Assembly: GCF_000768685.1 (NCBI RefSeq) | Contig: NZ_AVPK01000004.1 | Coordinates: 1 to 64,000 of the forward strand | Length of the DNA: 64,000 nucleotides | DNA from: Knoellia subterranea KCTC 19937 | Lineage (GTDB): Bacteria; Actinomycetota; Actinomycetes; Actinomycetales; Dermatophilaceae | Direction: 5' to 3' | Shown: positions 1 to 63,481 of the stretch, in pieces | How the letters are laid out: every line of letters starts with the position of its first letter | How positions within the stretch are numbered: the stretch's first letter is position 1 | Program-made: the position numbers and the translations under genes | Notes under the pieces: generated by a model | The model's database searches: none | Seen by the model: only the letters and a program-made list of their open reading frames with translations | What the model was told of the DNA's origin: nothing

Positions 1-764
1 CGCCGCCGTCCCCGGCTGCGCCCGAGTCCCCGGCTGCGCCCGAGCGGGCGGCATCGGCACCGGCACACGCACCAGCTCCGACTCCGGCCGTGTCCCCGTC
101 GACCGAGCCCAGCGCCGGCGCCCCCGAGGACCTCGCACACACGCAGGCCCTGCCGTTCCCCGAGCGGTCGCCCATGGCCGGCCCGACCGTGCGGACCGCG
201 CCGCCCACACCGCCCGGGCCGACCGCGGTGGGGCGCAAGCAGTCACCGAGCACAGGGCGAGGCCGGATCGCCGCGATGTTCGCGACCTTCGTCGTCCTCA
301 CGATCCTGGGCACGTGGGCGCTGACCCAGCTGTTCGGTTCCAACCCCGCGCCGACGACCGACGCGAGCGGCAGTCAGTCCACCTCGACTTCGGCCCCACC
401 CTCCGCAGGATCGCCCTCGCCGACGACTCCCTCGGAGACGAGCTCTCCCTCCGCCTCGAGCAGCGCCACGCTGCCGGCCGGTGCCCCCGAACCGCGACTC
501 ACGGACGCACCCAAGCTGTGCAACAAGAGCGGGAGCGACGCCGTCGCGTCGGCATGGTCCGGCAACCGCGACACGTCGTGCGCCTTCTCGGAAGCGGTGC
601 GGGCGGCATACCGGAAGCTCGACGACACCACCGGGACGTTCCGGACCTACAGCACCGTCACGAAGCGCTGGTACGACGTGACGTGCCTCGACGCCGACGG
701 CGCCCAACGGCCGTTGCGCTGCCACAGCGCCGACGGAAACGCCGTCGTCTTCCTCGGTCCCTGA
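1..764 (+). CDS. C-terminal part of a membrane-anchored protein, 5' truncated
   Basis: The reading frame is open from the first bases of the window, so the gene begins upstream; a GTG at 90 is only an internal candidate. The visible part has a Pro/Ala/Ser-rich linker, one hydrophobic membrane segment (about 285-345, FATFVVLTILGTWAL), a Ser/Thr/Pro-rich spacer and an outer domain of about 85 residues with four cysteines, probably two disulfides. The TSCxF...V..AY pattern resembles small extracytoplasmic domains at the ends of actinobacterial kinases and secreted proteins. No catalytic domain is visible, so the function of the whole protein is unknown. Confidence 0.6.
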   Translation, partial: PPSPAAPESPAAPERAASAPAHAPAPTPAVSPSTEPSAGAPEDLAHTQALPFPERSPMAGPTVRTAPPTPPGPTAVGRKQSPSTGRGRIAAMFATFVVLTILGTWALTQLFGSNPAPTTDASGSQSTSTSAPPSAGSPSPTTPSETSSPSASSSATLPAGAPEPRLTDAPKLCNKSGSDAVASAWSGNRDTSCAFSEAVRAAYRKLDDTTGTFRTYSTVTKRWYDVTCLDADGAQRPLRCHSADGNAVVFLGP

Positions 765-916
765 CCCGGCCCAACCCACAGAGGTCGCTGCTCCGGCAGA
801 CCAGACGATGTGCGATTTTCACGAATCCACTGCGGGGTTCGGAGGATCTCCCTAGGCTGCGCTCACTCGACCGCGGTGGTCGACGTCGGGCCGTTTTCGT
901 GAACGTGGGGCATCAC

Positions 917-2662
917 ATGGTCAATCGCCTGCGCGCCGTTGGAGCATCACTCCTGTTGTCGGTTCTGACTCTCGTGGGAGTCATCGCCGCAGCACCGCCC
1001 ACTCAGGCGGTCCCCACGACGCCGGGCGCGTTCCGGTCGCTGCAACCCGCCCGCCTCCTCGACACGAGGACGGGGATCGGTGCTGCCGCGGTGAAGATCC
1101 CGGCGCGCGGGACGCTGCGACTGCAGGTGACCGGGCGGGGTGGCGTGGGTGCCACCGGGACCGTCTCGGCTGCAGTGCTCAACGTGACCGTCGTTGCGCC
1201 CTCGGCGTCGGGCTACATCACGGCCTACCCCGACGGTGCCGGTCGGCCGAACGCGTCGAACGTGAACTTCGGGTCGAACCAGACGATCGCGAACCTCGGT
1301 GCGGTCCGGGTCGGGACGAACGGGCGGGTGGCGTTCTACAACGGATCCGAGGGCTCGATCCACCTCCTCGTCGATGTGTCCGGCTATTACCTCAGCGGCA
1401 CGCCCTCGGCCGCCGGCGCGTTCCGGTCGCTGCAGCCGGCCCGACTCCTCGACACGAGGACGGGCATCGGTGCGGCGGCGGTGAAGATCCCGGCGCGCGG
1501 GACGTTGCGACTGCAGGTGACCGGGCGGGGCGGCGTGGGTGCGACGGGCACGGTGTCTGCGGCAGCCCTCAACGTGACCGTTGCCTCCCCGACGATGTCG
1601 GGCTACATCACGGCCTACCCGGATGGTGCCGCCCGGCCGAACGCGTCGAACGTGAATTTCGGGGCGGGGCAGACGATCGCGAACCTGGGTGCGGTCCGGG
1701 TCGGGACGAACGGGCGAGTGGCGTTCTACAACGGGTCCGAGGGGTCGATCCACCTGCTCGTCGACGTGTCCGGCTCCTACAACGCGGGGACGGCCACGGC
1801 CGAGGGGACGTTCCGGTCGCTGCAGCCGGCCCGCCTGCTCGACACCCGCGGTGGAGTGGGTGGGACCACGGTTCCCCCGCGAGGCACTCTGCAGCTCCAG
1901 GTGACCGGTCTCGGCGGCGTGGGTGCCACGGGCAGTGTTTCGGCCGCTGCGCTGAACGTGACCGTCGTGTCCCCGTCCGAATCGGGCTACATCACGGCCT
2001 ATCCCGCGGGTGCGGCGCGACCCAACGCGTCACAGGTGAACTTCGGTCCCGGCCAGACAATCGCCAACCTGGGCATGGTCCGTGTCGGGAGCAACGGCAA
2101 GGTCTCCCTCTACAACGGGTCGGAAGGCACGATCGAGCTCCTCGCGGATGTCTCGGGCTACCACGTGCAACCGGTGACCTACCGGACGTTCGGTGCCGGG
2201 ACCAAGAGGGTCGGCATCGACATCGCCGCCGGAACCTATCGACTCCGAACCCAACCGTCCTACTGCTACTGGGAGCGGCTCAGCGGATTCTCGGGCGAGT
2301 TCGAGGACATCATCGCCAACAACTTCACGTCGGTTCGAGACGTCGTGACCATTGAGCCGACCGACGCCGGCTTCAGTTCCGATGATTGCGGCACCTGGAC
2401 CTCGGACCTCTCACGCGTGACGGCCTCTCCGACGTCCGGGTTCGGTGCCGGGATGATGATCGTCAACACCGACGTCGCACCCGGACTGTGGCGCGCCCCG
2501 GGTGGTTCCGAGTGCTACTGGGAGCGAGTCTCCGGGTTCACGCATGAGTTCGACGAGCTTCTCGCCAACGACTACGGCCCGACCGGCCCGACCGTGAGCA
2601 TCGATGCCAGTGACGCCGGGTTCTTCTCCGAGGACTGCGGCACCTGGACCAAGATCGGCTGA
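917..2662 (+). CDS. secreted repeat protein: three beta-rich repeats plus two CYWER/CGTW modules
   Basis: The ATG at 917 has a GTGGGG ribosome-binding site six bases upstream and opens a clear signal peptide (RLRAV, then a hydrophobic core, cut near PTQA-VP). The product has 581 residues. Residues about 38-158, 168-288 and 299-415 are three copies of a domain beginning FRSLQPARLLDTR and ending LVDVSGYY. Residues about 424-498 and 508-581 are two copies of a 70-residue module with CYWER...AGF...CGTW, each with two cysteines likely to pair. There is no LPXTG signal or transmembrane anchor. The repeat domain type is common in actinobacterial exported proteins, but the function is unknown. Adhesion or cell-wall contact is only a guess. 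Confidence 0.85.
   Translation: MVNRLRAVGASLLLSVLTLVGVIAAAPPTQAVPTTPGAFRSLQPARLLDTRTGIGAAAVKIPARGTLRLQVTGRGGVGATGTVSAAVLNVTVVAPSASGYITAYPDGAGRPNASNVNFGSNQTIANLGAVRVGTNGRVAFYNGSEGSIHLLVDVSGYYLSGTPSAAGAFRSLQPARLLDTRTGIGAAAVKIPARGTLRLQVTGRGGVGATGTVSAAALNVTVASPTMSGYITAYPDGAARPNASNVNFGAGQTIANLGAVRVGTNGRVAFYNGSEGSIHLLVDVSGSYNAGTATAEGTFRSLQPARLLDTRGGVGGTTVPPRGTLQLQVTGLGGVGATGSVSAAALNVTVVSPSESGYITAYPAGAARPNASQVNFGPGQTIANLGMVRVGSNGKVSLYNGSEGTIELLADVSGYHVQPVTYRTFGAGTKRVGIDIAAGTYRLRTQPSYCYWERLSGFSGEFEDIIANNFTSVRDVVTIEPTDAGFSSDDCGTWTSDLSRVTASPTSGFGAGMMIVNTDVAPGLWRAPGGSECYWERVSGFTHEFDELLANDYGPTGPTVSIDASDAGFFSEDCGTWTKIG
1030..2165 (+). repeat. three tandem ~390-bp intragenic repeats
   Basis: The three copies start near 1030, 1420 and 1811. 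The first two are nearly identical at DNA level over long stretches (for example ATCCCGGCGCGCGGGACG in both) and the third is more diverged, which suggests recent duplication or gene conversion between copies one and two. Confidence 0.85.
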
Positions 2663-3936: not shown

Positions 3937-4029
3937 GGTGGTGTTCTCCTTCAGTGGTGGTGCCAAGCCGGTATGCCGGGTGGCCGGGTGTGGTCTGTCA
4001 GGTCAGGTGGTCTGTGGTCCGGGATGCAG

Positions 4030-4856: not shown

Positions 4857-5543
4857 TCAGGGGGTGGGGGCGGCGTCGACGAGGAGTTCGGCGAGGCGCT
4901 GGGGCTGGGTGTACATCGGCCAGTGGCCCGAGTCGATGTCCACCAGTTCGAGCTTCTCCATCCGAGCCAGCTCGGGCGTGTCCCCGCCGTCGATCCATTC
5001 GCGAGCCTGCTCGGGCGAGAACTCCGGGCACACGAGAACTCCGGGGACGGCATACCGGCGCTCGTCCTTCAGGTGCACGATCCCGCGACTCACGCCGACG
5101 GGCACGGGCACCATCGCCGCCTCGACCGACGTCTTGAGCTCGTCGGACATGTCGTCGCTGTCCGGCCCCTCGAACTTCGCCCACCCCGGGAAGCCCATGA
5201 GCCCGTCGACCGGCTCGAAGAAGTCGGCGTACGTCGCGCCGTCCTGCTCGGGGAATCCGCCGATGAACACGACCGACGAGACCTTCTCCGGCCGGGCATC
5301 CGCCGCGAGCCACGCGAGGCTGCATGCACCCGAATGTCCCACGACGACAACGGAATCGGGAGCCTCGTCCACGGCCGCGACGACGGCAGCCACCTGGTCG
5401 TCGAGCGTCGCGTCGCTGGTCCCGTCGCCCTGTCCGGGCAGCGTGATCGGCACGGCGGTGTGGCCGAGTGCCGTGATCTCGGGGACGACGGCGTCCCACG
5501 CCGAGCCGGTGAGCCAGAGTCCGCCGATGAGGACGATGTGCAT
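4857..5543 (-). CDS. alpha/beta hydrolase
   Basis: A 228-residue alpha/beta-hydrolase. The oxyanion region is IVLIGGLWLTG near the N terminus, the nucleophile elbow is VVGHSGAC (about residue 70), and the catalytic His is in DSGHWPM near the C terminus. It has no signal peptide, so it is cytosolic. The substrate cannot be told from the sequence; similar short members act on small esters. It is divergent from the WYL regulator gene with 110 bases between, which suggests that regulator controls it. The pair interrupts the ino1-padR to ponA order known from mycobacteria. Confidence 0.85.
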   Translation of the reverse strand: MHIVLIGGLWLTGSAWDAVVPEITALGHTAVPITLPGQGDGTSDATLDDQVAAVVAAVDEAPDSVVVVGHSGACSLAWLAADARPEKVSSVVFIGGFPEQDGATYADFFEPVDGLMGFPGWAKFEGPDSDDMSDELKTSVEAAMVPVPVGVSRGIVHLKDERRYAVPGVLVCPEFSPEQAREWIDGGDTPELARMEKLELVDIDSGHWPMYTQPQRLAELLVDAAPTP

Positions 5544-5653
5544 GGTGTGCGCTCCTGGTTTTCGAGAGTGACGGTGGCCGTGTTCTCTGACCGTAGGGTG
5601 TGTTGCGGACGAAACCCTTCCGGTATGCCGTCCGCTCTGGAATCGTGGTCGTC

Positions 5654-6661
5654 ATGCCTTCCCAGTCGGCCCGGTCCAGCGAGGTGAGTCCGGCGGCTCG
5701 GGCCCTGCTCACGCTGGAGATCCTGCAGAACCGACCCGGGGTAACGGCGACGGAGATCGCCCGCCGATTGGGAGTGACCGAGCGCGCGACGCGACGGCAC
5801 ATCGCGATCCTGCGTGAGGCCGGCATACCCGTCGAGTCCACGCGAGGACCACACGGCGGCTACACGCTGGGGCGGGGTGCCGCCCTCGCGCCGGTCGTCT
5901 TCACCGAGACCGAGGCGCTCAGCCTGGTGATGGCGGTCATCGACGCCCACCCGGGCGCTGCCACGGCGGGGGAGGGTGAGGACGTCGGGTCCGCGCTCGG
6001 CAAGGTGATCCGCGCGCTGCCCAGGGCCGCCGGGCACCAGGCCGCCGCGCTGCGCGACCACGCCTCGGCGACGCCGGACCGCTACCCGAGCCGGCCGGAT
6101 CCCGCGACGACGAGCGCCCTCGTCGCGGCGAGTGCGGCCCGGCGGCAGGTGCGCCTCACCTATGCGAGCGAGGCGGGGAAGTCGTGGGAGGACGTCGTCG
6201 ACCCGTGGGCCGTCGTCGTGCGGCACAGCCGGTGGTACCTCCTGTGCCACGTCCATCGCGTCGACGGCGTCCGGACCTATCGCATCGACCGGGTGCGTGA
6301 CGTCGTCGAACTCGAGGACCTGTTCGAGCCGCCGGCCGACCTCGACCCCGTCGCCTCGCTCGAGCAGCACCTCGGGATCGGGTGGGAGCACGCGACCCGC
6401 GTCGTGTTCGAGGCCCCTCCGGAGGACGTCGCGCGCTGGGTGCACCCGGCCATGGGAGTCCTCGGACGGCATACGGAAGGGTCTGTTCTGGAGGGAAGCA
6501 CGAGCAATCCGACCATGTACGCGCGCGAGTGGTTGGCCCGCATCCCCGTGCCGTTCCGCGTCGAGGGCGGACCCGAACTTCTCGACGCGGTCCGCACGGC
6601 CGCAGCCCAACTCAGCCGGGCCGTCGACGGGTGGCCTGAGGGCCCTGCGACCGCTTCCTGA
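5654..6661 (+). CDS. YafY-type HTH and WYL-domain transcriptional regulator
   Basis: A 335-residue regulator. The N-terminal helix-turn-helix (TATEIARRLGVTERATRRHI) lies at about residues 34-55, followed by a wing (ESTRGPHGGYTLGRG). The WYL ligand-binding domain is in the middle (VRHSRWYLLCHVH, then RTYRIDRV), and the C-terminal WCX extension follows. WYL regulators often sense nucleic acid or nucleotide ligands, but not always. The ATG at 5654 is preferred over an upstream start because the motif-rich leader with a GTATGCCGTCCGCTC copy (5623) then stays non-coding. The likely target is the divergent hydrolase. Confidence 0.88.
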   Translation: MPSQSARSSEVSPAARALLTLEILQNRPGVTATEIARRLGVTERATRRHIAILREAGIPVESTRGPHGGYTLGRGAALAPVVFTETEALSLVMAVIDAHPGAATAGEGEDVGSALGKVIRALPRAAGHQAAALRDHASATPDRYPSRPDPATTSALVAASAARRQVRLTYASEAGKSWEDVVDPWAVVVRHSRWYLLCHVHRVDGVRTYRIDRVRDVVELEDLFEPPADLDPVASLEQHLGIGWEHATRVVFEAPPEDVARWVHPAMGVLGRHTEGSVLEGSTSNPTMYAREWLARIPVPFRVEGGPELLDAVRTAAAQLSRAVDGWPEGPATAS

Positions 6662-9062: not shown

Positions 9063-10373
9063 GTGTCCGTCCCCGTCCAGGTGTCGCCGCACTCGCGGGA
9101 CCGGCCACGCTGGACCGACGCCGGCCTCGCGCCGGCAGCGCTGCTCGCGGGGCTGCCGGTGCTCGCCGCTGTCTGGAAGCAGGGGCCGTGCCTCGAGAAC
9201 GGCTGGGGCGGCACGGAGCCGTTCTGGCGCTATTGCTATTCCGACCTGGCCGTCGGCGTGCAGACGGCGGGAGCGGAAGCCGGCCTCACGGCATACCTTC
9301 GTGGTGACGTGCCCCTCGACCAACCACCGCTGACAGGCAGTCTTGTGTCCCTCATCGCCGGTCTCGGACCGGGCTCGGGGGCGCTCTCGACCCAGCGGTG
9401 GGTGCTTGCCGTGTGGGCCGTCCTCGCCGTCGTCGGACTCGTCCTCATGGCGTGGTGGGTGCGGACGTCGCCGGGGCGGCCCGATCCGCTGCACGTCGTC
9501 CTCGCGCCCGTCGCCGCATTGACGATCCTGCTCTCGCCGGATCTCCTCGGCGTCGTCCTCGCGACGGGCGGTTTGTGGGCGTGGGGGCGGCGTCGTCCGG
9601 CGCTCGCGGGGGCGCTGCTCGGTGCGGGATTCATGGCGCGGACCTATCCCGTGCTGCTCCTCGTCGCCGTCGCGCTGCTCGCGTGGCGCACGGGGCGCGA
9701 GCGGGAGCTGCCCCGACTGGGCGGTGGCGCGCTCGCTGCCGTCGCCGTGATCGGGGTGCCGCTGCTGGCGTTGGCCCCCGAGAACGTGACCCGGGCATGG
9801 TCGACGTGGCTCGAGACGCCGGCCGGGCTGGGGTCGGTCTGGTACATCCCCACCCTCGCCGGCCACCCCTGGTCCACGTCGGTGGTCACGACCGTCGCGG
9901 TCCTCGGCATGCTCGTGGCGGTCGTGCTCGTCGGCCTGCTCGTGCTGGGGGCGCCTCGCGTCCCTCGGCTCGGCGCCGTCGCCCTTGTGGGCGTCGCGGT
10001 GGTGCTCGTGACGGGCACGGCCTTCCCGGTGCAGTCGTCGCTGTGGCTCGTGCCGCTCGTGGCAATGGCCGGCCTGCGATGGCGCGACCACCTGCTCTGG
10101 GCGCTCGCCGAGGGGGTGCACTTCGTCGCGGTCTGGCTCTATCTCGGCGGGCTCCAGGACGCGAACCGCTCCCTGCCGCCGGGCTGGTACTCCTTCGCAC
10201 TCCTCCTGCGCGTCTCCGCGGTCGTGTACCTCGCCGTCCGGGCCTGGCAGACCGCCACCTCAACTTTCCCGCCCGAAGTGGGTTCCTCTCACCTCGCCTC
10301 GCCTCCGCGACCAAGCGAAGAGAGAACTTCCGACGCGGAGTCGGCTCACCTCGAGAGCCCCTCGTCGATTTAG
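9063..10373 (+). CDS. polytopic membrane glycosyltransferase (GT87-like, Rv0051 position)
   Basis: A 436-residue protein with about nine to ten hydrophobic segments. An outer loop early in the protein carries ENGWGG and a DLAVGVQTAG segment, typical of polyprenol-phosphate-sugar dependent enzymes of the GT-C fold. It starts with GTG four bases after ponA, so the two are cotranscribed. The same order occurs in mycobacteria (Rv0050-Rv0051). The donor and acceptor are unknown; a cell-envelope glycan role is inferred. The last 35 or so residues (from TFPPEVGSSHLAS) are encoded by palindromic repeat B1 and look acquired rather than functional. Confidence 0.8.
   Translation: MSVPVQVSPHSRDRPRWTDAGLAPAALLAGLPVLAAVWKQGPCLENGWGGTEPFWRYCYSDLAVGVQTAGAEAGLTAYLRGDVPLDQPPLTGSLVSLIAGLGPGSGALSTQRWVLAVWAVLAVVGLVLMAWWVRTSPGRPDPLHVVLAPVAALTILLSPDLLGVVLATGGLWAWGRRRPALAGALLGAGFMARTYPVLLLVAVALLAWRTGRERELPRLGGGALAAVAVIGVPLLALAPENVTRAWSTWLETPAGLGSVWYIPTLAGHPWSTSVVTTVAVLGMLVAVVLVGLLVLGAPRVPRLGAVALVGVAVVLVTGTAFPVQSSLWLVPLVAMAGLRWRDHLLWALAEGVHFVAVWLYLGGLQDANRSLPPGWYSFALLLRVSAVVYLAVRAWQTATSTFPPEVGSSHLASPPRPSEERTSDAESAHLESPSSI
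10264..10341. repeat. palindromic repeat family B, copy 1
   Basis: The segment starts TTTCCCGCCCGAAGTGGG, followed by TTCCTCTCACCTCGC and CAAGCGAAGAGAGAAC, a decayed version of the repeat seen intact at 16923-17000. Here it lies inside the 3' end of a coding sequence because the family's usual in-repeat TGA reads CGA. Confidence 0.75.
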
Positions 10374-10511
10374 CCGGTATGCCGTGCAGCCGGTACCCTT
10401 GCGAGGTTGCCTGTGCCCTGTGGACAACTTCACGGCGGTGTCGGCAGCAATGCATACCCTCCTGTCACGGAGAGACCGTGACCGTTCAGACCGAAGGAGG
10501 CGGGTTAACGC

Positions 10512-12395: not shown

Positions 12396-12452
12396 GGTGA
12401 GCGATCTGCGGGTGTCGGCGGGACGGCATACGGTCTGCTGGTGCCGTTCGCG

Positions 12453-22854: not shown

Positions 22855-22884
22855 ACAGGCAAGTATTGCTCCACACGCGCGAAC

Positions 22885-48983: not shown

Positions 48984-49870
48984 GTCCCAGCGGATACGGA
49001 GCAGACAACCATCGGTGGTTCCGGCCGATGGGAACTCTGGACGACGGCGAGTTCCAGGTTGCGGTCACGCCGACGGCGACGAACCCGGTCGAGGGTTGGG
49101 AGCACACGTCGTTGCGGGTGGCCTGGCTGGCTCCGGGCGGGCTCGTGGAGCACGAGACCGGTGACGAGGAGATCGTCGTCGTGCCGTTGGTCGGCTCCTT
49201 CGACATCGAGGTGGAGGGCTTCGACGCGATCTCGCTCGACGGGAGGGTGAGCGTCTTCGACGGACCGAGCGACACGGCATACCTCCCGCGACGGCGCACG
49301 ATTACGGTGCGCAACAACGGAACTGGCGACGCGCGGGTCGCTCTGTGCGGTGCGCGCGCGACGACTGAACGCGAACCGCGACGCATCGCCGCCGACGAGG
49401 CGACGCCGGAGCAGCGCGGCGCGGGCAACGCGAGCCGCGAAGTGCGCGCGTTCGGGCTGCCGCCGGTGCTCGACGCTGACTCGATCCTCGTCTGCGAGGT
49501 CATCACGCCCGCCGGCAACTGGAGCTCGTGGCCGCCGCACAAGCACGACGAGGATCGGCTCGGCGAGGAGTCGGAGCTCGAGGAGATCTACTACTTCGAG
49601 ACGCGGTCGACGGACCCGCGAGGCACGGATCCCTTGGGGTACCAACGGGTCTACGGCTCGGGTGCGCGACCGATCGACGTGCTCGCCGAGGTCCGCACCG
49701 GCGACGTCGTCCTCGTCCCGCACGGCTGGCACGGACCGGCGATGGCCGCTCCGGACGCCGACCTCTACTACCTCAACGTCATGGCCGGGCCCGGTGCCGA
49801 GAGAGCATGGCTCATCACCGACGACCCGGCGCACGCGTGGGTGCGCGAGACCTGGAGTGAGCAGGAGTGA
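48980..49870 (+). CDS. iolB: 5-deoxy-glucuronate isomerase
   Basis: A 296-residue bicupin enzyme. The first cupin carries GLVEHETGDEEIVVVPL and the second PPHKHDEDRLGEESELEEIYYFE, with His and Glu metal ligands, and VLVPHGWHGPAMA. It isomerises the product of IolD. The ATG overlaps the preceding stop (ATGA). Confidence 0.93.
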   Translation: MSPSGYGADNHRWFRPMGTLDDGEFQVAVTPTATNPVEGWEHTSLRVAWLAPGGLVEHETGDEEIVVVPLVGSFDIEVEGFDAISLDGRVSVFDGPSDTAYLPRRRTITVRNNGTGDARVALCGARATTEREPRRIAADEATPEQRGAGNASREVRAFGLPPVLDADSILVCEVITPAGNWSSWPPHKHDEDRLGEESELEEIYYFETRSTDPRGTDPLGYQRVYGSGARPIDVLAEVRTGDVVLVPHGWHGPAMAAPDADLYYLNVMAGPGAERAWLITDDPAHAWVRETWSEQE

Positions 49871-49876
49871 GCGGGC

Positions 49877-51802
49877 ATGAGTGACACAGTGCGGTTGACG
49901 GTCGGGCAGGCGGTCGTCCGCTTCCTCGGGCAGCAGTGGTCCGAGCGAGACGGCGAAAGGCAGCGGCTCTTCGCCGGGTGCCTCGGCATCTTCGGCCACG
50001 GCAACGTCGCCGGTCTCGGCCAGGGTCTGCTCGAGGACGAGCTCGGCTCTGGTGCGTTGCCGTATGTCCTCGTCCGCAACGAGCAGGCGATGGTGCACAC
50101 GGCGGTCGGCTTCGCGCGCCAACGCGACCGCCTCCAGACGTGGGCGTGCACCGCCTCGGTCGGCCCCGGCTCGACAAACATGCTGACGGGTGCCGCGCTC
50201 GCGACGATCAACCGCATCCCGGTGTTGCTCCTGCCTTCTGGCACCTTCGCGACGCGGGTCGCCGCCCCGGTGCTCCAGGAGCTCGAGACGTCGTATGCCG
50301 GTGACGTCACCGTCAATGACGCCTTCCGTCCGCTGTCGCGCTTCTTCGACGAAGTGCAGCGACCCGAGCAGCTACCGTCGGCGCTCCTGTCGGCGATGCG
50401 GGTGCTCACGGACCCGGCCGAGACGGGCGCCGTGACGATCTCACTGCCACAGGACGTGCAGGCAGAGGCGTACGGCTGGCCGGTCGAGCTCTTCGACGAG
50501 CGGGTGTGGCACGTGGCCCGGCCGGTGCCCGAGGCGTCGCGGATCTCGGCTGCTGCGGATCTCATCCGCAGTGCACGCAAGCCGCTCCTCGTGGCCGGCG
50601 GCGGCGTTCACTACTCTGGTGCGGAGGAGGTGCTGGCCGAATTCGCCTCTGCCACAGGCGTTCCCGTGGCAGAGACGCAGGCGGGGAAGGGCTCGCTGCT
50701 GCACGGGCACCCACAACTCGTCGGAGCCGTTGGGTCGACCGGCACCACCGCGGCCAACGCGCTCGCTGGCGAAGCTGATGTCGTTATCGGTATCGGCACC
50801 CGCTGGTCGGACTTCACGACCGCATCACGAACAGCATTCGCGCGCAGGGGAGTTCGCTTCGTCAACATCAACATCGCCGGGTTCGACGCGGGGAAGCTCG
50901 CCGGGCTCTCCGTCGTGGGCGACGCCCGCGAGGCCCTGGTCGCGCTCGCCGAGGCCCTGTCGGACTGGTCCGTGTCCGACGCCTATCGCAAGCGTCAGGG
51001 CACCCTGTGGCGCCGATGGGACAAAGCCGTGCGGACGGCATACGCACCGCCTGCGGAGGTGACCGACGCCCTGGCGAGCGGCTTGCTCACGCAGGCGAGC
51101 GTCATCGGTGCCGTCAACGAGCTGAGCGACCCACGGGACGTCGTCCTGTGCGCCGCGGGATCGATGCCCGGCGACCTCCACAAGCTGTGGCGGGTGCGGG
51201 ACCGCAAGGGCTATCACGTGGAGTACGGCTACTCCTGCATGGGCTACGAAGTGCCCGCGTCAATCGGCATCCGGTGGGCGGATCCGACCCGGGATGTCTT
51301 CGCGATGGTCGGAGACGCCGGCTACCTCATGATGCCGACCGAGCTCGTCACTGCCGTGCAGGAGCGGGTCAAGGTCATCGTCGTCCTCGTGCAGAACCAC
51401 GGTTTCCACTCCATCGGGTCGCTGTCGGAAAGCCTTGGCTCGCAACGGTTCGGGACGGCCTATCGCATGCGCGACGAGGGATCACATCGACTCGAGGGCG
51501 ACCGTCTGCCCGTCGACCTCGCCGCCAACGCCCGCAGCCTCGGCGCCCACGTCATCGAGGTTCACTCGCGCGAGGAGCTCGCCGACGCGATCGCCGAGGC
51601 CAAAGCGTGGCCGAGTGATGGCGGCCCGGTCGTCATCCACGTCGAGACCGACCCCCGGGTCTTCGCGCCCGACAGCGAGAGCTGGTGGGACGTGCCGGTG
51701 GCGCAGGTGAGCAACCTCGAGTCGACGCGTTCCGCGCACGACGCCTATGTACAGCACAAGGCTGCGCAGCGTCCGTTCGTCACACCCAGCGAGTCGTCAT
51801 GA
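49877..51802 (+). CDS. iolD: 3D-(3,5/4)-trihydroxycyclohexane-1,2-dione hydrolase
   Basis: A thiamine-diphosphate enzyme that opens the inositol ring. The 641-residue protein has the N-terminal domain with the catalytic Glu in RNEQAMVHTAVG, a middle domain, and the C-terminal ThDP-binding domain with GDAGYLMMPTELVTA...VVLVQN. The start is near the iolB stop (six bases). One GTATGCCG motif lies in the middle (50293) and one at 51036. Confidence 0.95.
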   Translation: MSDTVRLTVGQAVVRFLGQQWSERDGERQRLFAGCLGIFGHGNVAGLGQGLLEDELGSGALPYVLVRNEQAMVHTAVGFARQRDRLQTWACTASVGPGSTNMLTGAALATINRIPVLLLPSGTFATRVAAPVLQELETSYAGDVTVNDAFRPLSRFFDEVQRPEQLPSALLSAMRVLTDPAETGAVTISLPQDVQAEAYGWPVELFDERVWHVARPVPEASRISAAADLIRSARKPLLVAGGGVHYSGAEEVLAEFASATGVPVAETQAGKGSLLHGHPQLVGAVGSTGTTAANALAGEADVVIGIGTRWSDFTTASRTAFARRGVRFVNINIAGFDAGKLAGLSVVGDAREALVALAEALSDWSVSDAYRKRQGTLWRRWDKAVRTAYAPPAEVTDALASGLLTQASVIGAVNELSDPRDVVLCAAGSMPGDLHKLWRVRDRKGYHVEYGYSCMGYEVPASIGIRWADPTRDVFAMVGDAGYLMMPTELVTAVQERVKVIVVLVQNHGFHSIGSLSESLGSQRFGTAYRMRDEGSHRLEGDRLPVDLAANARSLGAHVIEVHSREELADAIAEAKAWPSDGGPVVIHVETDPRVFAPDSESWWDVPVAQVSNLESTRSAHDAYVQHKAAQRPFVTPSESS

Positions 51803-52923
51803 GCGGGGGCGTGGGCAGCAACGACGTCGTGCGGGTCGGGATCGTCGGCGTCGGAATCATGGGTGCCGACCACGCCGAGCGGCTCGCCCGCCGGATCGCA
51901 GGCGCGAGGCTCGTGGCCGTCGCGGACCCGGACGAGGGGCGCGCTCGGGACCTTGCCGCGCGCTTCGAGGGCGTCCGGGCGGGCGCCGACGCGCTCGAGC
52001 TCATCGCTGCGGACGATGTCGACGCGGTGTTGCTGGCGTCACCCGGTTTCGTCCACGAGGACCAGGTGCTTGCCTGCCTCGCGGCGGACAAGCCGGTGTT
52101 GTGCGAGAAGCCGCTCACGATGGACTCGGAGTCGTCGTTGCGTCTCGTCGCCGCCGACCGGGAGGCGGAGGAGCGTGTGGGTCGACGTCTCGTCCAGGTC
52201 GGCTTCATGCGGCGGTTCGACCCGGAGTATGCCGGTCTGCGGACCCTGTTGGAGAGCGGCGAGTTGGGGCGCACCCTCCTGCTCCACAACGTCCACCGCA
52301 ACGCGTCCGTCCCGAACGCCGACTTCCGCTCGGAGATGATCGTGCGCGACAGCCTCGTCCACGAGGTCGACGTCGCACGGTTCCTCTTCGGCGAAGAGGT
52401 CGTCGCGATCCAGGTCCTCTCACCCGCACCGACGTCGCACGCCGCCGACGGGGTCATCGACCCTCAGGTCGCGATCTTCACGATGGCCGGGGGCGGGATC
52501 GTCACCAACGAGGTGTTCGTCAACAGCCAGGTCGGCTACGAAGTGCGTTGCGAGGCGGTGGCCGAACGCGGCTCAGCCGTCATCGGTCGCCCGTCCTCGA
52601 GCACCTACACGACGGCGCTCGCCGTCGACGGGCTCGGTCGCTGGGGTGGAGAGGTGCCGGCGGACTACCGCACGAGGTTCGCCACGGCATACGACCTCGA
52701 AGTCCAGGCGTGGGTCGACTCGGTGAGGTCCGGCACTCCGGTGGGCCCCACGGCCTGGGACGGGTACGCCGCCACGGCGGTCTCGACCGCGGGGATGGCG
52801 TCGCTCGCCTCCGGGGAACGCGTCGACATCGCCCTCGCCGACCCACAGACCCTGTCCCACAGCGCATCCAGCCCCGACACTGACACCAGCGAGAACGCAC
52901 CCAGCACGAAGGAACAGCCATGA
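51799..52923 (+). CDS. Gfo/Idh/MocA family oxidoreductase, second inositol dehydrogenase
   Basis: A 374-residue NAD-dependent enzyme: VRVGIVGVGIMGADHAERLAR (Rossmann), CEKPLTMDSE (catalytic Lys), and IVRDSLVHEVDVARFLFG. It overlaps iolD by ATGA and iolA by ATGA, so it belongs to the operon. It may act on scyllo- or chiro-inositol in place of myo-inositol; this is inferred from the common presence of two such genes. Confidence 0.88.
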   Translation: MSGGVGSNDVVRVGIVGVGIMGADHAERLARRIAGARLVAVADPDEGRARDLAARFEGVRAGADALELIAADDVDAVLLASPGFVHEDQVLACLAADKPVLCEKPLTMDSESSLRLVAADREAEERVGRRLVQVGFMRRFDPEYAGLRTLLESGELGRTLLLHNVHRNASVPNADFRSEMIVRDSLVHEVDVARFLFGEEVVAIQVLSPAPTSHAADGVIDPQVAIFTMAGGGIVTNEVFVNSQVGYEVRCEAVAERGSAVIGRPSSSTYTTALAVDGLGRWGGEVPADYRTRFATAYDLEVQAWVDSVRSGTPVGPTAWDGYAATAVSTAGMASLASGERVDIALADPQTLSHSASSPDTDTSENAPSTKEQP

Positions 52924-54416: not shown

Positions 54417-54464
54417 GCGCGGTCGCGGAGGCGGGCGGACGGCATACGCCTCCGTCGTCCCGAC

Positions 54465-57206: not shown

Positions 57207-57805
57207 CGCACCTCCCCGTTGGTGTCGGTTCCTTCTCCGGTATGCCGTCCGCTCGCCGAATCGTCCGGCTCACCGGGCCCGACCCACTGTGACCGGGTGG
57301 CGGCGCGCTCCTCGGCGAGGTCCTCCGCGGCGAGTTGCTCCGACAGCTCATCGTCCGTGACGGCGATCGAGGGCGTGGGGAGGTCCTCGCCCTCCTCGTC
57401 CGGGACACCGGCCTCCAGGTCGTCGAACGTGGCGGACGTGTGATCGAGGTCGGCGCGGCGGCGCACGAGGTCGTCCTCGACGTCGTCCTGCACGTCGTCG
57501 TGGCCGGTCAGCTGCCAGGCGCGATAGGCCAGGGCGAGCCCGAATGCCGTCACGCCGAGGGTGATGACGATGGCCGTGAGGACCATGGCCTGCGGCAGGG
57601 GATCGGTCATCGTGCTGTCGTCGCCGGCGCCGATGATCGGGGCGCCCCCGGCGGGGCCCGAGGCGACGAGGTAGGTGAGGTTGACGCCGTTCCCGAGCAT
57701 GACGAACCCGACGAGGATGCGGGAGAGGCTGCGCTCGAGGACGAGCACCGTGCCGCAGGCGACGAGGATGACGATCGCGATGATGAGGACGTAGTTCGTG
57801 GCCAT
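57203..57805 (-). CDS. mnhC: Na+/H+ antiporter subunit C with a long acidic tail
   Basis: A NuoK-like subunit: the first 115 residues hold three membrane segments (NYVLIIAIVILVACGTVLVL, VGFVMLGNGVNLTYLVASG, QAMVLTAIVITLGVTAFGLAL). The family is usually about 115 residues, but here an extra 85-residue acidic tail (VQDDVEDDLVRRR onward) is present, whose end is read through a GTATGCCGTCCGCTC copy. The start at 57805 has GAGGGGC upstream. The tail may be recent. Confidence 0.88.
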   Translation of the reverse strand: MATNYVLIIAIVILVACGTVLVLERSLSRILVGFVMLGNGVNLTYLVASGPAGGAPIIGAGDDSTMTDPLPQAMVLTAIVITLGVTAFGLALAYRAWQLTGHDDVQDDVEDDLVRRRADLDHTSATFDDLEAGVPDEEGEDLPTPSIAVTDDELSEQLAAEDLAEERAATRSQWVGPGEPDDSASGRHTGEGTDTNGEVR

Positions 57806-57842: not shown

Positions 57843-60701
57843 TCATGCGATGGCCACCTCTCCGGTGTCGGTGTCGACCTCGCCGCTCTCCTCACCCTGC
57901 TTGTCGATGCCGCCGCCGAGGCTGCGCAGGACGTCGAGGGAGAGGCCGACGACGACGAGATAGACGCCGAGGTCGAAGAAGAGCGACGTCACGAGGTGGA
58001 CCTCGTAGCCGAAGAGTCCGGTGGGCACGTCGAAGATGCCGCTCTGGAAGGCGTTGTGCCCCAACAGTGCCGGCACGATCCCGGACACGGCGGCGATGAC
58101 GAGGCCGCCGCCGAGCACCGCACCGGCGTCGATGGGTGCGGCCGAGTCGAGCTCGGCCCGCCCACCGGCGAGGTAGCGCACCATGAGGGCCAGGCCGGCG
58201 ATGAGACCTCCCGCGAAACCGCCTCCGGGCAGGTTGTGCCCGGCGAAGGTCAGGTAGATCGAGAAGATCATGAGCACCGGGAACACGATCCGGGTCACGA
58301 TCTCGAAGACGACCGAGCGACGACGGTCGGCAATGAGTCCGGCCCCGCGCAGCCACCCCGGGCTCGCCTCGACGCGCTTGCGCCGGGTCTCACGGTGGGA
58401 CGTCGCGCGGTCGGTGAGCAGGAAGATCAGGCTGGCGACACCGGTGGCCGCGACGACGAGCACCGAGATCTCGCCGAAGGTGTCCCAGACCCGGATGTCG
58501 ACAAGGGTCACGTTGACGATGTTGTTGCCGCCGCCGTAGTCGTGGGCAGGACCGGCGAACTCCTCACCAACGGGCCGTGCCGTGCGAGCGTTGGCCGCCA
58601 CCAGGGCATAGCCACCGACCGCCAGACCGACGAGGACACCCACCGCGACCCGAATCCGACGGGCGGCAGTGAACGGCCGCGACGAGAAGAACGGGGGGAG
58701 CCGGCGCATGACAAGGACGAACGTGACGACGGAGAACGTCTCGACGAGCACCTGCGTCAGGGCGAGGTCGGGGGCGCCGTGTGCCACGAAGAGCAGTGCC
58801 GTGCCATATCCCGTGATGCCGAGGAGCAGGACGGCGCGCAACCGGCGGCGGGACCGGACCGTCATGACCGCTGCCAGTGACACGACGAGGACGATCGCGA
58901 CCTGGAGGAGGTTGTCGGGTCCACGCAGGTTCACCTCGTCCCACGCCTGCACGAGGGCGATGCCGGGGATCGTCACGAGGACGACGAGGATGATGCCGAC
59001 ATAGACGGGCAGCGAACCGCGCTGGGTGCGACCGGTGACCTCGATCGAGAGCCGATCCACCCCTCGGATGATCGCGTGATAGACGACCTCGGCCTCCGGC
59101 AGGTGCAAACCCTCGACGACCCGCCGCTGGGCCGACGCCACTGCCCGACGCCCGATCCACAGGAGCAGGCCGCCCGCGATGGCCAGGGCCGACAGGCCGA
59201 GGGCCGGGGTGAAGCCGTGCCACAGCGTCAGCTGGGGTGCGTGGGCTCCGGAAGGCAACTCACCGGCATACGCCATCAGTCGTGGCGTGAGGAAACCACC
59301 CGCGAAGCCACCGACGAGCGACAACCCGGCCAGCAGCACCGGCGCCACGACGAAGCCCACGCGCTGCGGGGTGACCGGACGCGCCTCGACGTTGCGGACA
59401 CCGAACGCGCCCCACACGAAGCGCGCTGTGTAGGCCACGGTCAGCGTCGCGCCGACGACGAGCCCGACGAGTGCGACCACACCCCACGCACCGAGGTCGG
59501 CGTCGTGACCGAGGTCGAGGTACGCCGCGAGCGCGGCCTCCTTCGCGGTGAAGCCGAGGAGCGGGGGGAGTCCGGCCATCGATGCGGCGGCAAGGACTGC
59601 AGCGACGAACAGGACGGGGAGGGAGCGGTAGAGGCCCGTGAGCTCGCGCAGGTCACGCGTGCCGGTCGCACGGTCGATGACGCCGACAACGAGGAAGAGG
59701 GTGGACTTGAAGAGGGCGTGACCGAGGACGAGCGCGAGGCCCGCGAACGTCGCCGCGCGCGTGCCGGCCCCGACGACCGCGATGAGGAATCCGAGCTGGC
59801 TGACGGTGCCGTAGGCGAGGAGCAGTTTGATGTCGTACTGACGCAGCGCACGCAGCCCGCCGATGATCATCGTGACGGTGCCGGTGGCGAGGAGGAGCGG
59901 CCGCCAGCCCGGGATGTCGGAGAACGCAGGCGCGAGCAGCGCGACGAGGAAGACGCCGGCCTTGACCATCGCCGCGGCGTGGAGATAGGCGCTCACGGGG
60001 GTTGGTGCGGCCATGGCGCCGGGCAGCCAGAAGTGGAATGGCACGAGCGCCGACTTGCTGATCGCCCCGACGAGGATGAGGAGGACGGCGATCGTCGTGG
60101 TCGTGCCCTGCGGCGGGTCGGCGAGGATCTCGGAGACGCGCGCGGTGCCGGCCTCGTGCCCGAGCAGGAAGAGGCCTATGAGCATGACGAGTCCGCCGAA
60201 GGTCGTCACGATGAGGGCGTTCATCGCGGCGCGACGGTTGGCCTTGCGCTCCGGGTTGTGACCGATGAGGAGGAACGACAGGATCGTCGTCAGTTCCCAG
60301 AAGACGAAGAGGATGTAGAGGTTGTCGGAGACGACGAGCCCGAGCATCGACCCTGCGAACCCGGTGAGCACCGCCGAGAAGCGCCACAACTCGAGGTCGC
60401 CCTCTCGGAAGTACCACCGGCAATAGGCCAGCACGAGCGCCCCGACCCCGGTGACGATGAGCGCCATCACGGCGTTGAGGGGCGTCAGCGCGAAGTCGAG
60501 GTGCAGGTCGATCGTGGGGATCCACGGGATCCGCTCGGTGCGGACGTCGCCGTCGAAGGCCCGCTGCGCCGGCGCGAGCAGCCACAGGAACGACCCGAAC
60601 GGGATGAGTGCGAGGACCCAGAACGCGCGTCGTTCGATGCGCCGGACGAGGACGGGGGCGAGCGCGGCCGCGACGAAGTGCAGCGTCACGATCACGAGCA
60701 T
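57843..60701 (-). CDS. mnhA: Na+/H+ antiporter subunit A fused to subunit B
   Basis: A 952-residue protein. The N-terminal part (about residues 1-500) is the proton-pumping NuoL-like module, with the key regions FVFWELTTILSFLLIGH and SKSALVPFHFWLPGAMAAPTPVSAYLHAA. A middle MnhA-specific extension and a C-terminal MnhB module (FSIYLTFAGHNLPGGGFAGGLIAG) follow, so MnhA and MnhB form one chain, as in many actinobacteria. The start at 60701 has GGAGG seven bases upstream; longer frames are not needed. It is the first gene of the mnh operon. Confidence 0.93.
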   Translation of the reverse strand: MLVIVTLHFVAAALAPVLVRRIERRAFWVLALIPFGSFLWLLAPAQRAFDGDVRTERIPWIPTIDLHLDFALTPLNAVMALIVTGVGALVLAYCRWYFREGDLELWRFSAVLTGFAGSMLGLVVSDNLYILFVFWELTTILSFLLIGHNPERKANRRAAMNALIVTTFGGLVMLIGLFLLGHEAGTARVSEILADPPQGTTTTIAVLLILVGAISKSALVPFHFWLPGAMAAPTPVSAYLHAAAMVKAGVFLVALLAPAFSDIPGWRPLLLATGTVTMIIGGLRALRQYDIKLLLAYGTVSQLGFLIAVVGAGTRAATFAGLALVLGHALFKSTLFLVVGVIDRATGTRDLRELTGLYRSLPVLFVAAVLAAASMAGLPPLLGFTAKEAALAAYLDLGHDADLGAWGVVALVGLVVGATLTVAYTARFVWGAFGVRNVEARPVTPQRVGFVVAPVLLAGLSLVGGFAGGFLTPRLMAYAGELPSGAHAPQLTLWHGFTPALGLSALAIAGGLLLWIGRRAVASAQRRVVEGLHLPEAEVVYHAIIRGVDRLSIEVTGRTQRGSLPVYVGIILVVLVTIPGIALVQAWDEVNLRGPDNLLQVAIVLVVSLAAVMTVRSRRRLRAVLLLGITGYGTALLFVAHGAPDLALTQVLVETFSVVTFVLVMRRLPPFFSSRPFTAARRIRVAVGVLVGLAVGGYALVAANARTARPVGEEFAGPAHDYGGGNNIVNVTLVDIRVWDTFGEISVLVVAATGVASLIFLLTDRATSHRETRRKRVEASPGWLRGAGLIADRRRSVVFEIVTRIVFPVLMIFSIYLTFAGHNLPGGGFAGGLIAGLALMVRYLAGGRAELDSAAPIDAGAVLGGGLVIAAVSGIVPALLGHNAFQSGIFDVPTGLFGYEVHLVTSLFFDLGVYLVVVGLSLDVLRSLGGGIDKQGEESGEVDTDTGEVAIA

Positions 60702-60921: not shown

Positions 60922-62274
60922 TCAGTAGCGGCGGCCCTGACCGCCCTTGCCCTTGATGGCCCTCTTGGCGGCGCGCAGGATCGTCGCGCGCCGGGTCGTG
61001 CCCTCACGCTTGGGCGGCAGCGACAGCTCGACGACCTTCCAGTAGACGCTCGCCACCTGCTTGGGCAGCGACCCGGTCACGTAGTGCAGGTCGTGGCGCT
61101 CCATGAGGTCACGGATCTTCGGAGCGATCTTGGCATAGCGGTTGCTCGGCATGTCCGGGAAGAGGTGGTGCTCGATCTGGTGGCTGAGGTTGCCGGTCAT
61201 GACGTGCATCGCCTTGGACCCGTGGATGTTGCCGGAGCCGAGCATCTGCCGGAGGTACCACTCGCCGCGCGTCTCACCCTCGATCGACGTCTTCTCGAAC
61301 GTCTCGATGTCGGGCGGGAAGTGGCCGCAGATGATGACCGTGTTGGTCCAGACGTTGCGGATGAGGTTGGCGACGATGTTGGCGGTGAGGGTATGCCGCG
61401 TGGACCCGGTGAACGTTGCGGCCGCCAGTGCGGGGTGGAGGACGTAGTCGCGGGTCGCCTGCCGCTTGATCTTGGCGACGACCTCCTGTGCGTTCTTGCG
61501 GAACTCGGCCTTGTCCTCGTCGGAGAGACGCTTGCGCTTGGCGAGGTAGCCGCCGAGCTCGAGGTCGTAGGCCGCGATGGAGTACTCGAAGATCGCCGCG
61601 TTGGCGACGTGCCAGATCGGCTGGAAGAGGTAGAAGAGCGTCCACTTCTGGTCCTCGTCGACGCGCAGGATCCCGTAGCCGAGGTCGTTGTCGCGCCCGA
61701 GCACGTTGGTGAACGTGTGGTGGATCTCGTTGTGGCTGTGCTTCCACTGGCTCGACGGGGAGGCGTTGTCCCACTCCCACGCGGTCGAGTGGATCTTGGG
61801 GTCGCGCATCCAGTCCCACTGGCCGTGCATGACGTTGTGCCCGATCTCCATGTTCTCGAGGATCTTGGAGACGCCGAGGCCGGCCGTGCCGATCCACCAG
61901 AACGGACGGACGCCCTTGTACTTCACGCCGGAGAAGAGGAGCGCAGCTCGGCTGCCCATCTCCAGGTAGCGCTGGGTCTTGATGACCTTGCGGATGTATG
62001 CCGCGTCGCTGGCTCCCCGGGACTCCATCACCTCCGCACGGATCGCGTCGAGCTCGTGCCCGATCTCCTCGATCTGCTCTGGGGTGAGGTGTGCGGCGGG
62101 GTTGGGGCGGCCGGACTTCTTGAACTCGGGCCGCTGCGGGCGCGGCTCGGCGCTCGTCACGGACAGGCGCGAGTTGACAGTGCCGGGCGCCGGCATGTTC
62201 GGGTTCTCGGTGCTGGGCAGCGGGCCCGTGGCAGTGCTGTCGGTGCTGGTGGTGCGCTCAGGTGCCAAAGTCAT
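60922..62274 (-). CDS. membrane fatty-acid (acyl-CoA) desaturase
   Basis: A 450-residue di-iron desaturase. The three His boxes are HNVMH (146-150), HSHNEIHH (179-186) and HQIEHH (366-371). The N-terminal 65 residues are Pro/Thr-rich and the C terminus is basic. It introduces a double bond, probably delta-9, into acyl-CoA or lipid. The start at 62274 has AAGGAGA nine bases upstream; the GTG at 62292 is less likely. It is cotranscribed with the upstream reductase. Confidence 0.93.
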   Translation of the reverse strand: MTLAPERTTSTDSTATGPLPSTENPNMPAPGTVNSRLSVTSAEPRPQRPEFKKSGRPNPAAHLTPEQIEEIGHELDAIRAEVMESRGASDAAYIRKVIKTQRYLEMGSRAALLFSGVKYKGVRPFWWIGTAGLGVSKILENMEIGHNVMHGQWDWMRDPKIHSTAWEWDNASPSSQWKHSHNEIHHTFTNVLGRDNDLGYGILRVDEDQKWTLFYLFQPIWHVANAAIFEYSIAAYDLELGGYLAKRKRLSDEDKAEFRKNAQEVVAKIKRQATRDYVLHPALAAATFTGSTRHTLTANIVANLIRNVWTNTVIICGHFPPDIETFEKTSIEGETRGEWYLRQMLGSGNIHGSKAMHVMTGNLSHQIEHHLFPDMPSNRYAKIAPKIRDLMERHDLHYVTGSLPKQVASVYWKVVELSLPPKREGTTRRATILRAAKRAIKGKGGQGRRY

Positions 62275-62296: not shown

Positions 62297-62346
62297 GCCT
62301 TGTGTGTATGACGCCACGCCAGGGCGTGGGCTCATACACACAAGGC
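62297..62346 (-). repeat. hairpin between reductase and desaturase, repeat family E copy 2
   Basis: Arms 62297-62320 and 62323-62346 pair at 22 of 24 positions around GCCTTGTGTGTATGA. Its outer ends match the hairpin at 36415-36455. It lies 13 bases 3' of the reductase gene and 22 bases 5' of the desaturase start, so it may weaken or process the message. Confidence 0.65.
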
Positions 62347-62359
62347 AGGTTGTCGGGGG

Positions 62360-63481
62360 TCAGAGGTCGAGGTGGCAGGGGCCGGCGGCGGCGTTGACGC
62401 AGGTCTGGATCCGGACGTCGCCGGAGTTCTCGTCGGTCGTCGTGATCTCGCCGGAGCGCAGGTCGCGGACCGCACCCTCCCGCATCGTCACGACGCAGCC
62501 GAAACAGATGCCCATGCGGCACCCACTCGGCATGAGGACACCAGCCGCTTCGCCGGCGTCGAGGATGGGGGTGGCTCCGTCGGCGTCGACGGTGACGGAC
62601 GCCCTGTCGAACGTCACGGTGCCGCCCTCGCCCGGTTCGACGACGCTGGTGCGGAACCGCTCGACGTGCAGCTGGTCGGCGAGTCCCGCTGTCGCCCAAT
62701 GGGATTCGGCGGCATCGAGCAGACCGGTCGGACCGCACACCCACGTCTCGCGCTCGCGCCAGTCGGGGACGAGCTCGTCGAGCGAGGTGAGCGAGAGGAT
62801 CCCGGCCACGTTGTCGTGGTTCTCGTGCAGCGTGAGCCGGCTCGCGGCGGCATACCCGCGAAGTTCGTCCCGGAACATCACCGCGGATTCGGTCGGCGCG
62901 CAGTGCACGTGGACCACATCGCGCAGCGAGCCCAGGTGGTTGCGGAACATGCCGATGACGGGGGTGACGCCGGACCCGGCGGTGATGAACAGGGGTCGCT
63001 CCGGAAGCACCTCCGGTAGCGTGAAGTCGCCGGCCGCCTGGTCGAGCATCACGACCGTGCCGGGCTGGGCCATGTGGACGAGGTGGTTGCTCACGACGCC
63101 GTCGGGGATGGCCTTGGGGGTGATCGAGATGAGGTCGTCGGGCGTGCCGTCGCCGTGCGTCAGTGAGTAGGCGCGCCAGTGGCGGACGCCGTCGATGTCG
63201 ATGCCGATCCGGACGTACTGCCCTGGCACGTGCCCAGCCCATCCCCGCCCGGGCCGGATGGTGAGGGTGGCCGAGTCGGCGGTCTCGGCGGTGATGGACA
63301 CGATCCGGCCGCGCAGGTCGGCGCCGGCTCGCATCGGGTCGAGGAGGTCGAGGTAGTCGCCCGGCACGAGCGGCGTCGCCAGTGCCTCGGCAACCTTGCG
63401 CACCCCGTCAAGCAGCCCGGTGAGCCGGGAAGGACGAGGCGTATGCCGGGTCGTCGCGGTGCGTGGAAGGGTTGCGGTCAC
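62360..63481 (-). CDS. ferredoxin reductase-type electron donor of the desaturase
   Basis: A 373-residue flavoprotein with fused ferredoxin. FAD binding RAYS is at residues 103-106, the nucleotide site GSGVTP at 169-174, and the plant-type [2Fe-2S] ferredoxin domain has Cys321, 326, 329 and 361. It passes electrons from NAD(P)H to the adjacent desaturase, as does mycobacterial Rv3230c with DesA3. The start is GTG, 10 bases from an operator-like palindrome. Confidence 0.93.
   Translation of the reverse strand: MTATLPRTATTRHTPRPSRLTGLLDGVRKVAEALATPLVPGDYLDLLDPMRAGADLRGRIVSITAETADSATLTIRPGRGWAGHVPGQYVRIGIDIDGVRHWRAYSLTHGDGTPDDLISITPKAIPDGVVSNHLVHMAQPGTVVMLDQAAGDFTLPEVLPERPLFITAGSGVTPVIGMFRNHLGSLRDVVHVHCAPTESAVMFRDELRGYAAASRLTLHENHDNVAGILSLTSLDELVPDWRERETWVCGPTGLLDAAESHWATAGLADQLHVERFRTSVVEPGEGGTVTFDRASVTVDADGATPILDAGEAAGVLMPSGCRMGICFGCVVTMREGAVRDLRSGEITTTDENSGDVRIQTCVNAAAGPCHLDL

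Follow-up and report, generated by a model that had tools for sequence, protein, structure and literature searches.

A candidate DNA uptake sequence and its dialects in the actinobacterial family Dermatophilaceae

The octamer GTATGCCG recurs throughout the genome of Knoellia subterranea KCTC 19937 and is probably the core of a candidate DNA uptake sequence in the actinobacterial family Dermatophilaceae (alias Intrasporangiaceae). The window analysed here is the whole stretch of 64,000 bases at the start of contig NZ_AVPK01000004.1 (C29:1-64000 of genome G000). The number of copies, their strand balance and use of several frames, the tail, the inverted neighbours, the scarcity in islands and, above all, the mutually exclusive dialects of related genera match the DNA uptake sequences (DUS) of Neisseriaceae and the uptake signal sequences (USS) of Pasteurellaceae, and the word likely works like an uptake sequence. 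An earlier sequence-only reading of the window had offered three guesses: a HIP1-like iterated motif, an uptake sequence or a modification site. The uptake sequence is the best supported of these. HIP1 of cyanobacteria is a highly iterated palindromic octamer that, like GTATGCCG, lies both inside and between genes; GTATGCCG is not palindromic, so a HIP1-like reading fits poorly, and unlike HIP1 it is exchanged for other words in relatives.

The window holds 51 copies of GTATGCCG, 26 on the forward and 25 on the reverse strand, as the sequence-only reading had counted; the places it listed also agree, except that 62849 should read 62848. The two to three copies that it allowed for chance were too many, as dinucleotide shuffles of the window (n=100) averaged 0.79 copies and never gave more than 3; the order-2 Markov expectation is 1.5. 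Among the 1,680 letter permutations of the word, GTATGCCG has the top raw count in the window (51, followed by 39, 37 and 35, with a median of 2), and relative to Markov expectation it alone stands out among words of length 8. Whole-genome counts were made on G000 (3,566,056 bases in 33 contigs), which contains 2,444 copies (1,233 forward and 1,211 reverse, or about 0.7 per kb) versus 54 copies (22 forward and 32 reverse) of the control word, which is GTATGCCG read reversed and counted on both strands. In 370 kb of the same genome, 233 copies were found; an order-4 Markov model trained after masking the copies predicts 4.5. Such numbers, in the hundreds to thousands and far above chance, are expected of DUS. 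Genes were called with a heuristic based on G+C content at third codon positions (GC3), so that the split into coding and intergenic DNA is approximate. The 55 genes called in the window hold 37 coding copies, whereas 200 synonymous-codon shuffles of them left 2.6 on average and never more than 7, and codon usage is therefore no explanation for the excess. The proposed excess thus held against background models and equal-composition octamers, the codon-aware test covering the genes of the window rather than the whole genome.

The suggestion that the word is selected at the level of DNA is supported by its occurrence in both orientations and several frames, far above synonymous shuffling, and further by its somewhat higher density between genes and its retention at orthologous places. 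Most coding copies encode one of two dipeptides, Tyr-Ala in 64 of 80 sense copies and Ala-Tyr in 50 of 75 antisense copies; in the called genes of the window, 12 of the 79 TAT and four of the eight ATA codons fall inside copies. The DNA outside called genes, 20 percent of the sample, holds 58 of 213 contexts, and in a second count it makes up 21 percent and holds 64 of 233; enrichment between genes, another DUS property, was found both for GTATGCCG and for CGAAGGGGG, a word of the related genus g27. As had been claimed, no copy occurs in 10512-12310 or 25460-28009, the open reading frames (ORFs) that the earlier reading named rpsF-rplI and clpC. Strand use is balanced across the G000 stretches (chi-square 4.7 on 16) and in the 106 family genomes with at least 400 copies, where |z| exceeds 2 in one only; the lone skewed stretch in other sets is a 20-kb locus of G085 (7 versus 1). 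Absence of orientation bias is likewise expected of DUS.

The core is followed 3' by a weaker tail, clearest outside called genes, of the form GTATGCCG(T/G)CCGC(T/C)C(G/A)CCT, and its flanks vary from genus to genus. The commonest 11-mer of the window that contains the core is GTATGCCGTCC (15 of the 51 copies), which has ATGCCGTC in common with the Neisseria DUS form ATGCCGTCTGAA, probably by coincidence. The 24 single-mismatch words of GTATGCCG together occur 242 times in 370 kb of G000 versus 235 expected, which implies that all eight positions matter. Spacing in G000 is fairly even, with a coefficient of variation (CV) of the gaps of 0.72 versus 0.87 +- 0.06, a value that one of 500 simulations matched. 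This comparison used 15 loci of at least 15 kb, with neighbours within 60 bases merged; the evenness is weaker in 19 loci of other carriers (0.79 versus 0.87 +- 0.05). All eight neighbour pairs within 60 bases lie on opposite strands, and nine inverted pairs within 50 bases were found in 370 kb, after two loci had been added to the sample. Both inverted pairs of the window sit between convergent genes and form strong hairpins (Table 1), and a third pair chosen for folding, in L099, gave a hairpin z of -9.4. Inverted pairs at gene ends, a further feature of DUS, are thus present, though few in number.

Conservation was assessed in eight same-genus genomes, in which ten of the 51 window sites were alignable. 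Of the 51 site-by-genome comparisons at these sites, 35 showed GTATGCCG retained; for other 8-mers the figure was 18,944 of 52,988 (36 percent). Three of the 16 non-retained comparisons are a one-base gap in an otherwise intact copy. Turnover occurs too, since the site at 24585 is retained in none of five relatives. Further, the word is scarce in DNA that looks foreign, as DUS are: six 2.5-kb bins below 65 percent G+C (15 kb) contain no copy where about 10 were expected, versus 231 copies (0.66 per kb) in the other 140 bins, and the acquired-looking DNA of L208 has one copy in about 10.9 kb. This sample is small, comprising six bins and one island; the island carries ResIII, DNA-methylase and Abi_C genes together with an integrase-core-like gene below the Pfam cut-off.

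The distribution of the word was followed in 186 family genomes from 53 genera, to which an order-level sample added 229 genomes of other families. Within the family, 106 genomes hold 404 to 4,724 copies, 14 hold 150 to 399 and 66 fewer than 150; family genomes with the word are called carriers below. In all 106 genomes of the first group GTATGCCG is at least 2.5 times as frequent as the reversed word. A low ratio is expected in G041 because its flank spells the reversed word (GCCGTATGCCG). None of the 229 genomes from other families exceeds 177 copies, the count of G395, which has 135 of the reversed word. Among 80 named loci, GTATGCCG is dense (7 to 17 copies) in five, from Pedococcus cremeus, P. 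bigeumensis, an uncultured Tetrasphaera, Arsenicicoccus bolidensis and one metagenome-assembled genome, and the other 75 have 0 to 3 copies. One genome, G113, is at background (50 copies), the sole such case among the 31 species of its genus. It was dropped as a case of lost competence and its evidence left unused, as its weak ComEC match sits in a 2,081-base locus of a 230-contig assembly, where the gene could simply be cut by a contig end.

Family members without GTATGCCG often have another word at similar density, either a one-letter variant or an unrelated word, and such clade-specific dialects are characteristic of DUS. Like GTATGCCG, the words CGAAGGGGG, GTACGCCG and GGATGCCGG are nearly equal on both strands and lie inside and between genes. 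CGAAGGGGG is high genome-wide in 16/16 genomes of g27 and 3/3 of g35, with 396 to 985 copies per strand versus 3 to 20 of the reversed word, and reaches at most 80 copies in the remaining 167 of the 186 family genomes. The 19 CGAAGGGGG-rich genomes hold merely 7 to 41 copies of GTATGCCG, so that the two words are mutually exclusive. In samples of g27, 17 of 47 CGAAGGGGG copies lie outside called genes (15 percent of the sample) and three inverted pairs occur. In addition, three named Janibacter loci hold 30 copies of GAAGGGGG in 63 kb; judged from identical counts (G092/G429 and G020/G428), g35 would include Janibacter melonis and g11 Dermacoccus abyssi.

GTACGCCG is high in genomes of five genera of the family, namely g34 (3/3 genomes), g6 (one tested), g7 (one), g3 (3/3) and that of G083, with 737 + 726 copies in G083 and 391 + 394 in the weakest g3 genome. 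Outside the family it is high in 7/7 tested genomes, six of Nocardioides and one of Marmoricola (1,168 to 2,859 per strand), versus 46 to 344 per strand in 30 other genomes tested, including Aeromicrobium, Cellulomonas, Cellulosimicrobium and Mycobacterium. Part of this abundance reflects codon use, because GTACGCCG equals the common codon pair TAC GCC. Its intergenic density per 100 kb is 69 in g34 and 43 in Nocardioides versus 8 in Cellulomonas, and inverted pairs number six, four and zero, respectively. Among 37 genomes, GGATGCCGG stands out in G178 only (1,034 + 993). Two further words were seen in samples only. One, GTACGGCG, occurs 66 times in 120 kb of G083, alongside its GTACGCCG; G084 and G085, of the same genus, use GTATGCCG. 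The other, GGTCTACG, occurs 42 times in 100 kb of G008, and the four genus-mates of that genome use GTATGCCG. For GGATGCCG, a signal seen in the g46 sample vanished in the genome-wide count. Moderate over-representation was observed for CCGCATCGA in g31 (L153, L186, L205 and L237; 21 versus 2.9 in 80 kb) and for CGGGGGAG in g53 (26 versus 3.9 in 180 kb) and g11 (16 versus 2.3 in 60 kb), in loci that include L121-L123 and L159. These might be further, weaker words.

The machinery that an uptake sequence would serve is widespread in the family, as comEC, comEA and Tad-type ATPases all are. ComEC was matched in 180/186 family genomes. A ComEA-type helix-hairpin-helix protein was recognized by sequence pattern in 26 of 27 comEC loci (12 from carriers and 15 from non-carriers), the one miss, L165, being a carrier; in G000 the end of the ComEA-type ORF coincides with the comEC start, and the single such protein checked, that of L164, has the Pfam domains SLBB and HHH_3. 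A T2SSE-family (Tad-type) ATPase was present in 50/50 genomes examined, TadE-like pilins score above the Pfam cut-off in L208 and L174, and Tad genes occur in at least two loci of G000. PilM, which belongs to type IVa pili, was found in only 3/79 genomes, so the pilus, if any, is probably of the Tad/Flp type, as in Micrococcus luteus. In the proposed mechanism, the word on free DNA would be bound by a receptor at the cell surface, most probably a minor pilin belonging to such a Tad/Flp competence pilus, and the pilus would pass the DNA on to ComEA and ComEC. Word-bearing DNA would be preferentially taken up and recombined, whereby the word would build up and persist genome-wide, and DNA of species with a different word would be disfavoured.

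Comparable systems are known from other bacteria. According to two papers (PMC3630211, PMC7371117), the DUS of Neisseriaceae resemble GTATGCCG as short non-palindromic words in thousands of copies, with inverted pairs near gene ends, family-wide dialects and scarcity in islands; the former describes the inverted pairs as lying near terminators (PMC3630211). The present case differs from them in its phylum, in the rarity of PilM, in a core of eight bases, in having little or no near-miss excess and in the unrelated word of one group of genera. The USS of Pasteurellaceae, as outlined in PMC12616744, have a core of about nine letters and two types within the family, and a minor pilin is proposed as receptor. 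A short core and more than one type per family are common to both cases, and the word and phylum are different; the actinobacterial family has more words, and a receptor candidate was proposed there but none found here. With regard to the pilus, M. luteus transforms via comEA/EC and two tad clusters (PMC4322843), and G000 similarly has comEC preceded by a ComEA-type ORF and at least two Tad loci. The main text of that paper does not contain the terms "uptake sequence", "uptake signal" or "sequence-specific" (PMC4322843).

Several observations weigh against an uptake function. Six genomes lack a ComEC match and still hold at least 341 copies of GTATGCCG each; all are drafts, 58 to 95 percent complete. 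Gene presence was considered as the switch for the word and rejected, as none of ComEC, ComEA, the T2SSE ATPase, PilM and RecC tracks GTATGCCG. The competence genes are equally common in non-carriers, which gives no positive correlation and fits a family in which all are competent and the words differ. Neither ORF clustering at Tad loci (two sets of 20) nor pairwise comparison of Tad loci in two dialect pairs, both with crude ORF picking, yielded a receptor candidate. In G000 one T2SSE (Tad) ATPase gene appears as two pieces 14 kb apart (C1:413745-428574), and a part read of the DNA between them (partly L208) showed the ResIII, DNA-methylase, Abi_C and integrase-core-like genes; should competence require both tad clusters, as in M. 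luteus, the strain may currently be non-competent. In Haemophilus and Neisseria, single-mismatch copies are over-represented (PMC1939737). A clear near-miss excess, a trait of known uptake sequences that lies outside their definition, was not found in the three sets, the two besides G000 being slightly above expectation (114 versus 91 and 129 versus 121); its lack would point to a more stringent receptor or to a different function. Close inverted pairs are few, nine in 370 kb, where a density estimate gives about four by chance. Further, GTACGCCG is no denser between genes than within them in the g34 and Nocardioides samples, and no clear word emerged in g5, g11, g12, g16, g31, g37, g46 and g53 (40 to 180 kb sampled), low-count genera beyond these having been sampled little or not at all.

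Some of the same observations would suit a chromosome-wide site for an intracellular protein of nucleoid, replication, repair or segregation function, whose specificity shifts between genera. An exact word without near-miss excess is what a sharp binding site would give, and the fairly even spacing, the retention at orthologous sites and the presence of the word in the six drafts without ComEC match point the same way; the absence from low-GC DNA fits either view. We nevertheless consider such a site unlikely, as orientation bias is absent genome-wide and in pooled stretches, close pairs are all inverted, and CGAAGGGGG, an unrelated word, takes over in sister genera, which is hard to reconcile with an essential site. 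KOPS are orientation-polar sites, and a polar motif of the Chi or KOPS type was ruled out because no replichore orientation bias was found. A recombination hotspot of the Chi kind, recognized by a repair nuclease, would share with GTATGCCG an exact non-palindromic octamer at high density, but the strands are used equally here, and RecC was found in 11 of 22 carriers, G000 being among those without it, and in 16 of 28 non-carriers. Since RecC does not follow the word, Chi of RecBCD is excluded, and a hotspot of this general kind is very improbable.

The view that a conserved modification system methylates the word or uses it to mark self DNA deserves just as little credence. It would agree with the exactness of the word and with the DNA methylase gene that lies beside a ResIII gene in G000; that pair sits in acquired-looking DNA poor in GTATGCCG, and restriction sites are usually avoided in genomes rather than enriched. 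Least probable of all are remnants of a mobile or REP-like (repetitive extragenic palindromic) repeat. The tail of about 12 bases after many intergenic copies and the long palindromes that some copies form recall such elements, but the majority of copies fall inside called genes, use few frames and have little in common beyond eight bases, and many are retained at orthologous places.

If the uptake reading of GTATGCCG is extended, Actinomycetota may have their own family of DNA uptake words read by Tad-type competence pili, a broader view towards which we lean with some reserve. It would comprise at least four words seen genome-wide (GTATGCCG, GTACGCCG, GGATGCCGG and CGAAGGGGG) and two seen in samples only (GTACGGCG and GGTCTACG), in the family and in Nocardioides, including replacement by an unrelated word throughout the genomes of some genera. 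No actinobacterial uptake sequence was among the literature matches listed, in a search that did not extend to subscription papers and preprints. If true, this would add an independent case from a different phylum and with a different pilus, meaning that uptake specificity evolved more than once. The variety of words in such closely related bacteria would allow a direct test of receptor-word coevolution, and the words would reveal which actinobacteria exchange DNA by transformation.

Table 1. Copies of GTATGCCG and hairpins formed by inverted pairs in the window. Contexts follow the GC3-based gene calls; the last column gives aligned relatives that retain the copy.
Feature	Position	Strand	Context or note	Retained
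Copy	604..611	-	coding	
Copy	3971..3978	+	between called genes	
Copy	5048..5055	-	coding	
Copy	5623..5630	+	coding	
Copy	5821..5828	-	coding	
Copy	6467..6474	-	coding	
Copy	9289..9296	-	coding	
Copy	10377..10384	+	between called genes	
Copy	12424..12431	-	coding	
Copy	13234..13241	+	coding	
Copy	15587..15594	+	coding	
Copy	16036..16043	-	coding	
Copy	17080..17087	-	coding	
Copy	18642..18649	-	between called genes	2/3
Copy	19897..19904	+	coding	3/4
Copy	20508..20515	-	coding	4/4
Copy	22788..22795	+	coding	7/8
Copy	22849..22856	-	coding	3/7
Copy with tail TCCGCTCGCCTTCC	24585..24592	+		0/5
Copy, left arm of inverted pair	25384..25391	+	between convergent genes	6/6
Copy, right arm of inverted pair	25406..25413	-		3/6; other 3 are one-base alignment gaps
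Hairpin from inverted pair	25372..25425	.	RNA fold z -12.4	
Copy	28060..28067	+	between called genes	6/7
Copy	29849..29856	-	between called genes	
Copy	30889..30896	+	between called genes	
Copy	31624..31631	-		1/1
Copy with tail TCCGCTCGCC	32566..32573	+	between called genes	
Copy, left arm of inverted pair	34609..34616	+	between convergent genes	
Copy, right arm of inverted pair	34623..34630	-	between convergent genes	
Hairpin from inverted pair	34598..34641	.	RNA fold z -6.6 and -6.7 on two strands	
Copy	35558..35565	+	between called genes	
Copy	37533..37540	+		
Copy	37736..37743	-		
Copy	41027..41034	+	between called genes	
Copy	41269..41276	-	between called genes	
Copy	43396..43403	+	within class II (D, K, N) tRNA synthetase gene	
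Copy	44505..44512	+		
Copy	45315..45322	-		
Copy	46898..46905	+		
Copy	47108..47115	-		
Copy	48836..48843	+		
Copy	49275..49282	-		
Copy	50293..50300	+		
Copy	51036..51043	-		
Copy	52227..52234	+		
Copy	52685..52692	-		
Copy	54440..54447	-	between called genes	
Copy with tail TCCGCTCGCC	57240..57247	+		
Copy	59264..59271	-		
Copy	61391..61398	+		
Copy	61996..62003	+		
Copy	62848..62855	-		
Copy	63441..63448	+		

Other repeats were observed in the window and in relatives, and Rfam gave zero matches within the window. A palindrome of about 83 bp at 25284-25366 has many further occurrences in genomes of the same genus, with the largest number in G076. A perfect tandem array of CAGAC (8.4 copies) occupies 28887-28928, and a 390 bp tandem repeat in three copies with 80 percent matches lies at 1013-2161. 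In G092 (L124-L126 and L152), nine-base runs of C or G exceed expectation about 20-fold (45 versus 2.2 in 80 kb).

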